Origin: Spirochaetota bacterium
GTDB lineage: Bacteria > Spirochaetota > UBA4802 > UBA5550
Direction of reading: 5' to 3'
Length of the DNA stretch: 64,000 bases
NCBI GenBank assembly: GCA_016928865.1
Contig: JAFGJX010000062.1
Coordinates: 1 to 64,000, forward strand
Part shown: in pieces, positions 1 through 46,306 of the stretch
How positions within the stretch are numbered: the stretch's first letter is position 1
How the letters are laid out: each line of letters starts with the position of its first letter
Notes under the pieces: generated by a model
The model's database searches: none
The model's input: the letters and a program-made list of their open reading frames with translations, nothing else
What the model was told of the DNA's origin: nothing
Translations under genes and position numbers: made by a program

Positions 1-131
1 CTCCAAGATGAGATTTCCCTTGGCCTTCGGGCCACTGAAGACTCCTTGAAGACTACAAGGTTGATAGGCTGGAGGTGTAAGCGCAGCAATGTGTTCAGCC
101 GACCAGTACTAATCAGTCGTGAGGCTTGACC
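1..131 (+). rRNA. 23S ribosomal RNA, 3' end (partial)
   Basis: The first ~130 bases match the conserved 3' end of bacterial 23S rRNA: TTGATAGGCTGGAGGTGTAA at about 61-80, GTACTAATC near 106-114, and the terminal GTGAGGCTTGACC ending near 131. The gene begins outside the window. A strong terminator follows within ten bases, so transcription appears to end here with no linked 5S gene. The exact mature 3' end is approximate. Confidence 0.93.
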
Positions 132-139
132 ATATTATA

Positions 140-37132: not shown

Positions 37133-39892
37133 ATGATAAGAAAATATCTTCAACTGGCCGGGCGGTTCATCGAGAAAAACAGGTATTCCGGCGTTGCAGT
37201 CTCGCTTGTGTCATTCCTGCTGGTAGCGCTCTTCTGTCTGACCACGGTGTACGAGCGGTTCGAGTTGAACCTGTACGACCTCCGGTTCAAGCTCAAGCCG
37301 TCAATTGAAGAATGGGACCGGCTCGCGTTCCTCGATATAGACGAAAACAGCCTCACGATCGTGGGCCAGTTTCCGTGGCCCCGGGACCTGTACGCGCACG
37401 GGATGGACACCCTGAAGGAGATCAACGTCGCGCAGACAAGCTATGATATGATGTTCCTCGACGAATCGCCCCTGACCCTTGATCCGGCCGCGTTTGATAT
37501 GCTGAAGGAAAAGATGAACAAGGAGGGTGGCATAACCCTGTCCGACCTTGACGAGGCCGGTCTGAACAAGGACCGGGTGGTTGCGGACAGCATTGCTTCC
37601 ATGGGACGCGTGGTCCTTTCCTATACAACCAATGACGAGCCGTTAAATTACGACGTGCTCCAGCGTCAGAAGAAGGAATCGTTCAAAATAGCGCAGCGGC
37701 GGTTTTTCGAGAAAGCGAGCGTGAAGCTCTCGCCCGACGAGCTGAAACGATTGGCCCCGCTCGCGGACCCGGACACGAAGAGCATATCCTACCCGATCCC
37801 CGCATTCATGGACGCCGCACGCTCCTTCGGTTTCGTCAACCGCGAGACCGACATTGACGGGACCGTGCGCAAGGTCCAGCTGGTGACGGTATTCGATGGG
37901 CGGATGTATTTTAACCTGGCCATGGTCATGCTGATGGACGCCTGCCGCGTGCCCCTGAAGAATGCCGAGGTATACCCGGGCAAAAGGATCGTGCTGAAAA
38001 AGGCGCTTCATCCCCTGACCCATACGATCGAGGACATCGTAATCCCGATTGACGAACACGGGATGATGTACGTCTCCTGGGCCGGATCGGGGAAGGGCGG
38101 CAGAAGGGAAGATACCTTTCGCCTCGTCCCGTTCTACGCGCTGCTGGAATACCCGCGTCACGTTGAAACCGTGAAGGCGATATTTAAAGAGGAGGACCGC
38201 CTCAAATCCGAACAACTGGCCGGGCTTGAAGAGCAGCTTGAGGACTTTACCGATGCGTTCCAGGCAGCTGGTGGCGATGCGAAAAAGCAATTCGAGGCAG
38301 GCATCGGCGAGCTGAAGAAGCGGATCGGCGCTCTGAAAGAGAACGGTCTCCTGGCCGATCTCGAGGCGCGCATGGAGAAAACCCGGACAGAATACGAAGC
38401 GGCAGCGGATCCGGCGGTCTTAAAGAAGAAATGGGAAGAGATCGTAGACCTCAAGAAGCGCATGAACAGGACGAAGCTTGAATACCAGAAAAATTACGCG
38501 GCCGAGATCGAGAGACTGAAGAAAGAGATCGCCGCAGGGGGCGGGCAGGATAAGCGCGACCAGCTCCGGGACTTCGAATTCATGCACAAGGCCATGGAAC
38601 TGGCGATCCGGGTCGAGGACCTGGCTGACTCAATTGTCCTGATAGGCCTGACCGCGGCCGGCACGCAGGACATTGGCTCCATTCCCCTGCACAACGAGTA
38701 CGCCCGGGTGGGGACCTACCACAACACGATCAACACCATCGTCCAGAACGAATTTATCAGGCGGGTGAACTGGCCGGCCAATCTTGTCATCATGCTATTC
38801 ATTGCCCTTTCCATGGGGTTCGTGATCCAGCGGCTGAACGCAAAGCGGTCGCTCGCCACCATGCTCGCGACGTTCATCGTGCTGAACGCCGCGATCATGC
38901 TCCTGTTCGCGCTGTTCAACATATGGCTGCAGCAGGTGGGGATCGCCCTTGCAATGTTCGTCCCCGCGCTGGCCATCGTGGCCATCAAGTTCATGAGTGA
39001 AGAGAGCCAGAAGCGCTTCATCAAGAGCGCGTTTTCCTATTACCTGTCGCCCAGCGTCATAGACGAGATCATCAAGGACCCGGATTCGCTCGAGCTGGGC
39101 GGCGAGGACCGCGAGATCACCATCTTCTTTTCGGATATAAAGGGATTTTCGACCATATCGGAGAAGCTCACGCCGCGCGAGCTGGTCGTGCGCCTGAACG
39201 AATACCTCACGGAGATGACCGACATCATCCTGAAATACAACGGCACGGTGGACAAATATATCGGCGACGCGATTATGGCGTTTTACGGCGCGCCGGTGCT
39301 GATGCCCGATCACCACGTTCAGGCGTGCCTCGCTGCCATAGACATGAAGAAACGGCTGCGCGAGCTGCAGGAAAAGTGGCGGAAAGAAGACGTTGAGCCG
39401 ATCTTCGCCAGGATGGGTATACACTCCGGCAAAGCGACGGTTGGCAACATGGGGTCGCGCACCAGGATGGACTATACCGTCATGGGCGACGCCGTGAACC
39501 TCGCATCGCGCCTCGAGGGCGCGAACAAGTCCTTCAATACAGCGGCCATGATCAGCGGATCGACCTACGAGGGCGCGAAGAAAGAAATTGACGCGCGCCA
39601 GCTCGGCAGGATCAAGGTGGTGGGAAAGCAGGAGGCGGTCGCCATCTACGAGCTGATGGGGCGCCGGGGGCAGCTGCCGGGAAGGATCTATGAGATGCTC
39701 GAGAAGTACAATCAGGGCAGGGAGTATTTCACGAATCGCGACTGGAAGCAGGCCCGGACCCTTTTCCGCGCCGCGCTCAAAATCGTCCCTGACGACGCGC
39801 CCTCCCGGATCTACGCTGAGCAGTGCGATCAGTATATCAAGACCCCGCCGCCGCGCGGATGGGACGGGGTGTTCGTGCTGAAGACGAAATGA
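37133..39892 (+). CDS. CHASE2-domain adenylate cyclase with coiled-coil insert
   Basis: The 919-residue protein has an N-terminal transmembrane helix (~20-40), a periplasmic CHASE2 sensor, and then a long charged coiled coil (~345-480) within CHASE2, before VLIGLTAAGTQDIGSIPLHN. Three membrane helices follow (~540-620). The class III cyclase domain (~650-830) has the metal-binding Asp of FFSDIKGFST, KYIGDAIMAFYG with its second metal Asp and substrate Lys, and TVMGDAVNLASRLEGA. The Lys/Asp specificity pair favours ATP over GTP. The C-terminus holds about 80 TPR-like residues. It likely reports a periplasmic signal as cAMP. The FecR and barrel genes upstream are its probable partners. Confidence 0.92.
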   Translation: MIRKYLQLAGRFIEKNRYSGVAVSLVSFLLVALFCLTTVYERFELNLYDLRFKLKPSIEEWDRLAFLDIDENSLTIVGQFPWPRDLYAHGMDTLKEINVAQTSYDMMFLDESPLTLDPAAFDMLKEKMNKEGGITLSDLDEAGLNKDRVVADSIASMGRVVLSYTTNDEPLNYDVLQRQKKESFKIAQRRFFEKASVKLSPDELKRLAPLADPDTKSISYPIPAFMDAARSFGFVNRETDIDGTVRKVQLVTVFDGRMYFNLAMVMLMDACRVPLKNAEVYPGKRIVLKKALHPLTHTIEDIVIPIDEHGMMYVSWAGSGKGGRREDTFRLVPFYALLEYPRHVETVKAIFKEEDRLKSEQLAGLEEQLEDFTDAFQAAGGDAKKQFEAGIGELKKRIGALKENGLLADLEARMEKTRTEYEAAADPAVLKKKWEEIVDLKKRMNRTKLEYQKNYAAEIERLKKEIAAGGGQDKRDQLRDFEFMHKAMELAIRVEDLADSIVLIGLTAAGTQDIGSIPLHNEYARVGTYHNTINTIVQNEFIRRVNWPANLVIMLFIALSMGFVIQRLNAKRSLATMLATFIVLNAAIMLLFALFNIWLQQVGIALAMFVPALAIVAIKFMSEESQKRFIKSAFSYYLSPSVIDEIIKDPDSLELGGEDREITIFFSDIKGFSTISEKLTPRELVVRLNEYLTEMTDIILKYNGTVDKYIGDAIMAFYGAPVLMPDHHVQACLAAIDMKKRLRELQEKWRKEDVEPIFARMGIHSGKATVGNMGSRTRMDYTVMGDAVNLASRLEGANKSFNTAAMISGSTYEGAKKEIDARQLGRIKVVGKQEAVAIYELMGRRGQLPGRIYEMLEKYNQGREYFTNRDWKQARTLFRAALKIVPDDAPSRIYAEQCDQYIKTPPPRGWDGVFVLKTK

Positions 39893-39902
39893 AACGGCGG
39901 TC

Positions 39903-40544
39903 TTACAGTTTTTCCATCTCGTCCAGAAATTTTTCTATCGGCTGCGCCCCCACCAGGCTGGTGGTTTCATTAATGATGATGCGCGGCACACCGGAGACCT
40001 GATATTTCTGGACCAGGTGCGGGAAGATGGCTGAATCGACCATGTCTGCCCTGATTCTCCTGTTTTCAAGCGCAAGGCGGTGTGCGGTGCTCACGGCACC
40101 GGGGCAGTAGGGTCAGGTGACCATGATGAATACCTGTATATGCACGTCTTTCTGAACTGCGGCGATGCGGGACGCGACCGGCTCCTTCAATGGTTCACGG
40201 AGTCCCGAGACCTCTATCAGGCTTCCGATGAACGAGTTGATCTCGTACCCGCCGGGAAGCCCGAAAAACCTGATGCCCGTGTCGGTGCCGTCTCTATCAG
40301 CCATGGCAATGGCAGGTATTTTGTCGATGTGGAGCCTGTCAGCGGCTTCCCTGTCTTTCTGGAAGTCGTATACCGACAGCTTTATTGCGTCAGACATGCC
40401 GGCGAACTCATCCACGAATGTGTGGGTGTCCTTGCAGGCGGCGCACTCGAACTCCTGGGTGAAATAGGAAAGGCGCACTGGACCCTTCATCTTCCCGAGT
40501 ATACCGGTGATCTGTTGCTTTAACGTATCATCAAACAGGGCCAT
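39903..40544 (-). CDS. Selenocysteine-containing protein disulfide oxidoreductase (double thioredoxin/glutaredoxin fold)
   Basis: Read as one 213-residue protein with UGA at 40113-40115 decoded as selenocysteine (Sec144). The N-terminal thioredoxin unit carries CAAC (Cys34, Cys37) in FECAACKDT. The C-terminal unit reads MVT-Sec-PYCPGAV, i.e. CPYC with Sec for the first Cys (Sec144, Cys147), then the cis-Pro region SGVPRIIINE. The frame is open through both halves and the length matches two-fold PDO/GlrX-type proteins. A hairpin follows the UGA at 40083-40106. AGGAGGT precedes ATG 40544. Annotated naively, this becomes two short genes or a pseudogene. It presumably reduces or exchanges disulfides or peroxides. 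SelA, SelB, SelC and SelD must be encoded elsewhere. Confidence 0.85.
40083..40106 (-). promoter_or_regulatory. Candidate bacterial SECIS element
   Basis: On the minus strand, GGTGC (40100-40096) and GCACC (40090-40086) form a stem around loop CGTGA, extended by TGC/GCA after a three-base bulge. The loop starts 17 bases after the UGA, and a G is among its first two bases. Both agree with the features I recall for bacterial SECIS elements (16-37 bases, small apical loop). It lies inside the coding region, as in bacteria. Confidence 0.6.
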
Positions 40545-40895
40545 GGTTTACCTCCTTTTTTATCGATGATGCCAGACATCGTCTGTCATGCCTGTAATAC
40601 ATGGGTTACCGGTGAGAGCGGAGCCCGGAAAATCAGCGCGTTTGATGAAATACCCGGATTTTATAACCCTGCATACCAATCCAGCATAGAATAGCAGTGA
40701 TAAGCTTAAATCGCAAGAAATTTTTAAGAGGAACATGCCCGCAGCGGCCACATGTGTCATGGTTTCTGTCTTTCTGGAGAGGTGAACATTATTATAGCGC
40801 TGATTCCTCCGGGATGCGAGGCGGTAACTTTTTTACTTTACAGATTCCTAATCCCCTGTATACCTACCCTAGCTATACAACCACCGGAGAACGCG
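40545..40895. other. 351-base gap without a recognisable gene
   Basis: Divergent intergenic region between the selenoprotein and ctpA. Short frames on both strands lack ribosome-binding sites and homology. The extended upstream frame of ctpA reaches 40752, but its extra residues look unlike a signal peptide. I see no clear promoter. Confidence 0.5.
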
Positions 40896-45274: not shown

Positions 45275-46306
45275 ATGATGCGATATTTTATATCGACTAT
45301 CCTTATGCTGTCTGTTGCTGCAGCGGCCGGCCATGGCGGCGCCGGCTGGTGGAGGCTCTATTTTACGTCTCCCGCAAGGCCGGCCATTCAAAATTGGAAG
45401 AAAAACCCGGAGGCTGGCCTTGTTTCTATAATCGAAAGAGCGCAACGCTCTGTCCACGGCGCATTTTATGATATATCTTCCCGGCCGGTAGCGGGGGCCC
45501 TGATCAATGCCAGGAAGCGCGGGGTGGAAGTGAAACTCGTCATGGACAGGCGGATGAAATCCTCAGAGGAAAGAAGAAGAATTTCCGCGCGGTATGAAGC
45601 TGCGGGCATAGCGTCCGTGATGCGCACCGCCGGGCGGAGCGGGCTTATGCACAACAAGTTCGCGGTTATTGACGGGACATGGCTCTGGACCGGGTCATAC
45701 AATGCAAGCAGGAATGATGCGGTGAAAAACAACAACAATGCGATCCTCATTAACTCGGTAGAGCTTGCCGGAATTTACGAAGACGAGTTCGCCGAGATGT
45801 TTGATGAAGGGATTTTCGGAAACCGGGGCGAACGGCGTCCCTTCGCGGACCTGAGAAAGCGTTATCACGTCAGAATCGGGGAGAACGACATCAACGCCTA
45901 TTTTTCACCGGATGACGACGTCGAAAGGATCATTTTGAAACGCCTGCAAAAAGCGAAATCATCGATATACTTCATGGCCTTTTCATTCACCAGCCCCGCC
46001 ATCGGCGAGATGATGATCCACAGGCACAGGGAGGGAGTCGCGGTGTACGGCCTGTTCGAGCGCAAGGGATCGAGGACCGGCCATTCGCAGTACACGAAGA
46101 TGAAGGTGGAAGGGCTTCCGGTGAAAATGGACCGCGGCCGGGGACTGATGCATCACAAGGTCATCATAATAGACGCCGAGCGGGTCATCATGGGATCGTA
46201 CAATTTTTCAAGGAACGCGAGCAGGTCCAACGACGAGAATATCCTCGTCATAGACAACAGAGAGATCGCGCAAGAGTTTCTGGCTGAATTCAAGCGCCTC
46301 TACTGA
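45275..46306 (+). CDS. Exported phospholipase D-family protein
   Basis: The 343-residue product has a signal peptide and two PLD half-sites, MHNKFAVIDG (His and Lys present) and MHHKVIIIDAERVIMGSYNF, each followed by the GSxN motif (GSYNAS, GSYNFS). Together they make one composite active site that hydrolyses phosphodiesters by a phospho-His intermediate. Substrates range from phospholipids to DNA (Nuc-type endonuclease); the sequence does not decide. Being exported, it acts in the periplasm or outside. Its 3' end overlaps the convergent TPR gene by seven bases. Confidence 0.88.
   Translation: MMRYFISTILMLSVAAAAGHGGAGWWRLYFTSPARPAIQNWKKNPEAGLVSIIERAQRSVHGAFYDISSRPVAGALINARKRGVEVKLVMDRRMKSSEERRRISARYEAAGIASVMRTAGRSGLMHNKFAVIDGTWLWTGSYNASRNDAVKNNNNAILINSVELAGIYEDEFAEMFDEGIFGNRGERRPFADLRKRYHVRIGENDINAYFSPDDDVERIILKRLQKAKSSIYFMAFSFTSPAIGEMMIHRHREGVAVYGLFERKGSRTGHSQYTKMKVEGLPVKMDRGRGLMHHKVIIIDAERVIMGSYNFSRNASRSNDENILVIDNREIAQEFLAEFKRLY

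Follow-up and report, generated by a model that had tools for sequence, protein, structure and literature searches.

A minus-strand gene in the 64,000-nucleotide stretch of Spirochaetota DNA analysed here (the window) very probably encodes a selenocysteine (Sec)-containing protein disulfide oxidoreductase (PDO): a two-fold protein homologous to the N-terminal domain of AhpF, in which SelB and a stem-loop would direct insertion of an attacking residue, Sec144, on a likely path from a reductase to peroxiredoxins. The selenoprotein reading is sound and strongly supported by sequence comparison, and belongs to a family known since at least 2006. Comparison with related genes and genomes establishes, at this level, the Sec codon, the Sec machinery, the exchange of Sec with Cys and the pairing with a reductase.

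Reading frame, active sites and fold

From 40544 to 39903 on the minus strand, the window holds a single frame whose sole interruption is a TGA at 40113-40115 (codon 144). Read through this codon, the gene specifies 213 amino acids and ends at a TAA; its standard open reading frame stops at the TGA after 143. The initial annotation had described two minus-strand segments in one frame split only by a TGA, a CAAC motif and a ribosome-binding site in the upstream half, and Sec at the first position of a second CPYC site, all of which are borne out by the features below.

39903..40544, minus strand: Sec-containing PDO gene of 213 codons and a TAA stop, in which the TGA at codon 144 is taken to specify Sec; assigned from the read-through frame, TIGR02187, 1a8l and purifying selection on either side of the TGA.
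40551..40555, minus strand: GGAGG ribosome-binding site, 6 nt ahead of the PDO ATG; assigned from the sequence.
40434..40445, minus strand: codons of the N-terminal C34-A-A-C37 site; assigned from the sequence, both cysteines being invariant in an alignment (n=7).
40104..40115, minus strand: codons of the C-terminal U144-P-Y-C147 site, with TGA at the same codon in six distinct genes and Cys in the other 55.
40085..40101, minus strand: predicted stem-loop of the bacterial SECIS type, CGGUGC-CGUGA-GCACCG, spanning bases 15-31 (numbered with the U of the UGA as base 1), with G22-U23 in the loop; assigned from conservation in Sec homologues.

The PDO protein matches the NCBIfam model TIGR02187 (PDO_seleno_TRX) at 238.6 bits, above the curated cut-off of 185 bits, and does so over essentially its full length (profile positions 2-208 of 209). 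Its nearest solved relative, the P. furiosus PDO 1a8l (E 9.9e-35), aligns from end to end and places its second CPYC opposite U144. This full-length alignment to a two-fold structure predicts two thioredoxin folds, each with its own CXXC or UXXC site (C34-C37 and U144-C147); together with the Sec machinery and the restriction of homologues to Cys or Sec described below, it supports the earlier proposal of a two-fold selenoprotein of the PDO/glutaredoxin-like type. The PDOs of thermophiles (PfPDO 1a8l, SsPDO and Aquifex 2ywm) likewise have two thioredoxin folds with a CXXC in each, that of the second being CPYC, but carry Cys where the spirochaete protein has Sec. A review holds PDOs to be confined to thermophiles (PMC7465337), whereas the present family occurs commonly in this order of Spirochaetota. 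A same-genus genome (G004) encodes two reductase-PDO pairs (L082, L083) whose second site reads CPVC or CPLC, not CPYC.

Other parts of the window were also read. A plus-strand gene at 37133-39892, whose 3' end converges with the PDO gene end 10 nt away, encodes a membrane protein of 919 aa whose sequence resembles a sensor joined to an adenylate cyclase. The 343-aa product of 45275-46306 (plus strand) has two HxK-type motifs (MHNKFAVID and MHHKVIIID), like phospholipase D-family nucleases, and positions 1-133 (plus strand) are the 3' end of a 23S rRNA gene.

Selenocysteine at codon 144 and the stem-loop after it

The genome that contains the window carries selA, selB, selC and selD. On contig C23, selC (C23:42862-42950, 73.2 bits; reported by ARAGORN as tRNA-SeC with anticodon tca) lies side by side with selA (486.7 bits) and selB (302 bits); selD (369.6 bits), on contig C118, has an in-frame TGA of its own (GUAAKIG). 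Judged by this gene set, the genome decodes UGA as Sec. A selA gene is present in all six Sec-PDO genomes, and in 37 of 59 relatives a match exceeds the selA cut-off, an agreement of little statistical power.

We compared residue 144 across 61 homologues from Spirochaetota, Bipolaricaulota, Chloroflexota and archaea, each genome being counted once where it appeared under both an L and a G name (several pairs). Six have Sec, 55 have Cys and none has any other residue. The Sec genes are six distinct Spirochaetota genes from three lineages: that of the window, L021 (same genus, 79% identical), L022, L068, L053 and L061. A maximum-likelihood tree intermingles the Sec and Cys forms within three small groups and requires four or more exchanges between the two residues, in either direction. 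The 68 codons that follow the TGA encode 60 residues identical to those of the nearest relative; for the window and L021, dN over this region is 0.076 and dS 1.016, with similar values for other pairs. These codons are under purifying selection. Because they are conserved, with dN well below dS, the TGA is no chance stop.

Were the TGA a true stop or a pseudogene mutation, only the 143-residue N-terminal fold would be made. That the standard reading frame is cut there, and that the first fold retains its own CAAC, fit such a product; the recurrence of the same TGA in six distinct genes of three lineages, always opposite Cys, the selection on downstream codons and the full Sec machinery in the genome make it very improbable. 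A sequencing or assembly error that turned TGC or TGT into TGA could be entertained, given a 131-contig assembly and Cys relatives with just those codons at position 144, but is scarcely credible when separately assembled genomes (L021, L022, L053, L061 and L068) have the same TGA and the Sec genes also differ from the Cys genes in the downstream stem. Because homologues have Cys and never Trp at this position, a code in which UGA specifies Trp was rejected, as were misassembly and a stop codon.

A published mark of bacterial SECIS elements is a small apical loop that contains a guanosine (PMC1088965), and a predicted stem-loop of this kind stands just after the UGA. In the window it has a 6-bp stem and a 5-nt loop, CGUGA, with a minimum free energy of -9.4 kcal/mol. 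Four of the Sec genes have a 6-bp stem with this loop at bases 15-31, and the other two a 7-bp stem with the loop AGUU at bases 14-31; G22 and U23 of the loop are invariant among them. In L068 a U-A pair of the stem is replaced by C-G, both sides having changed at the cost of a Thr-to-Ala substitution. A complete stem is found in six of six Sec genes and in one of 55 Cys genes (Fisher p 1.3e-7, for sequences that are related and not independent). The single Cys gene is L054, from the same genus as the window, and its stem may be left over from a recent replacement of Sec by Cys or may reflect codon bias. The gene at L100 2319-2960 (G001:C23), a Cys-PDO with a full SECIS-like stem, is the same gene as L054.

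Folding energy tells less. Against shuffled sequences the window hairpin gives z = -0.68, which is not significant, and 11% of synonymous recodings of the window stretch fold as well as the native one (range 1-15%); fold energy by itself was therefore rejected as proof of a SECIS element. A fast search of the genome with Rfam SECIS_1 gave no match, but it gave none in any control genome either and is uninformative; an Rfam search of the PDO gene at a relaxed threshold returned chance matches only. Since thermodynamics alone is unremarkable, support for the hairpin rests on comparison: the initial annotation's claim of a SECIS-like hairpin holds for its spacing and for its completeness in every Sec gene, but not for folding taken alone.

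Reductase partner and proposed electron path

At 33 of 38 loci in related genomes, the gene immediately upstream of the PDO gene encodes a reductase and is read from the same strand, with a gap of 31-150 nt; the same arrangement occurs on a Haliovirga plasmid. When compared with TIGR03140 (AhpF), the upstream reductase matches the C-terminal part of the model (387.6 bits) and the PDO matches the N-terminal domain (105.8 bits). Both scores fall below the whole-protein cut-off of 502.9 bits; AhpF joins its N-terminal domain and FAD/NAD(P)H reductase module in one polypeptide, whereas the spirochaete system divides them between two genes. Sec144, in the second fold of the PDO, stands opposite the first Cys of SCQNC in AhpF; the first fold keeps a CXXC (C34/C37) that AhpF has lost. 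Because the PDO and the reductase match two parts of one AhpF, and C34/C37 have no counterpart there, the pair resembles, from its sequences, an AhpF divided in two and provided with an additional active site.

The window's own genome departs from this arrangement. An AhpF-type reductase gene on contig C52 (L097 2523-3503) has no PDO gene downstream, the next gene being esterase-like and on the opposite strand; the PDO gene stands alone on contig C90, between two plus-strand genes. L021 still has reductase and PDO together. As judged from gene order, the PDO gene is separated from its reductase partner in the window's lineage, so that for this genome the pairing is taken from its relatives.

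Three further peroxiredoxin-family genes in the same genome have an in-frame TGA, and their products may be targets of the Sec-PDO or its partners:

Contig C40: L102, an AhpC-type peroxiredoxin (FTFVUPTE).
Contig C121: L104, a Prx-like protein (UPYC).
Contig C23, close to the selC-selA-selB cluster: L105, a peroxiredoxin-family protein of the TxxU type (DTKLU).

In the mechanism that we propose, SelB and tRNA-Sec would insert Sec at UGA codon 144, helped by the stem-loop after the codon. Electrons would pass from NAD(P)H to the FAD/CxxC reductase (an AhpF-type thioredoxin reductase, on another contig here and adjoining the PDO gene in nearly all relatives) and from there to Sec144/Cys147 at the C-terminal site of the PDO. 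Sec144 would attack target disulfides and Cys147 would resolve the intermediate, with the PDO acting on disulfides or selenenylsulfides of its targets, most likely peroxiredoxins. In UXXC enzymes, the first position, where Sec stands, suits the residue that attacks. We infer this electron path, the nucleophilic role of Sec144 and the peroxiredoxin substrate. In S. solfataricus, thioredoxin reductase reduces SsPDO, which in turn reduces Prx, and the C-terminal site of SsPDO is dominant and carries the thiol-transferase activity (PMC7465337, PMC7278568).

The Sec-PDO could instead serve mainly as a disulfide isomerase or oxidase, or as a general thioredoxin-like reductase, an alternative to which we give somewhat less than an even chance. 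PDO homologues are multifunctional and need both sites for isomerase activity (PMC7465337); the N-terminal CAAC, conserved in the PDO and absent from AhpF, points the same way, as does the lack of a peroxiredoxin gene beside the PDO among the loci listed. The AhpF-type reductase partner and the three Sec-type peroxiredoxin-family genes favour, on the other hand, a peroxide path. We suggest only tentatively that, within one cell, selenium might act at both ends of a relay from the AhpF-type reductase through the Sec-PDO to the AhpC-type Sec-peroxiredoxin on C40, with repeated switching between Sec and Cys at the PDO site in close relatives and relic SECIS elements in Cys revertants such as L054.

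Place among known selenoproteins

The initial annotation held Sec in the second site of a two-fold PDO/glutaredoxin-like protein to be apparently undescribed. This novelty does not survive, since TIGR02187 with UxxC is an already listed selenoprotein family (PMC1794560, PMC9312934, PMC13188914); 'seleno' is part of the model's very name. A 2006 survey gave 'Homolog of AhpF, amino-terminal domain', with two Sec members, from Carboxydothermus and Symbiobacterium (PMC1794560); lists of 2022 and 2026 give TIGR02187, UxxC, as ABB15282.1 of Carboxydothermus hydrogenoformans (PMC9312934, PMC13188914); and four sequences from Asgard archaea were given in 2024 (PMC11227280). The listed proteins, such as ABB15282.1, share with ours the NCBIfam model, the UxxC motif and one Sec per protein (PMC9312934, PMC13188914), but come from Clostridia, Symbiobacterium and Asgard archaea, whereas the window's member is from Spirochaetota. 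The literature tables do not say which fold holds their Sec; by analogy it most likely sits in the second, because AhpF keeps only the second CXXC. A Spirochaetota Sec-PDO was not found in the selenoprotein literature searched, which is no proof of absence.

The gene adds a Spirochaetota member to a sparsely documented selenoprotein family, in a form that automatic annotation would end at codon 143. The conserved reductase-PDO gene pair supplies a likely electron donor, and close relatives with Sec or Cys at one catalytic residue, in which the stem-loop is correspondingly present or lost, provide a set for measuring the cost and benefit of Sec.
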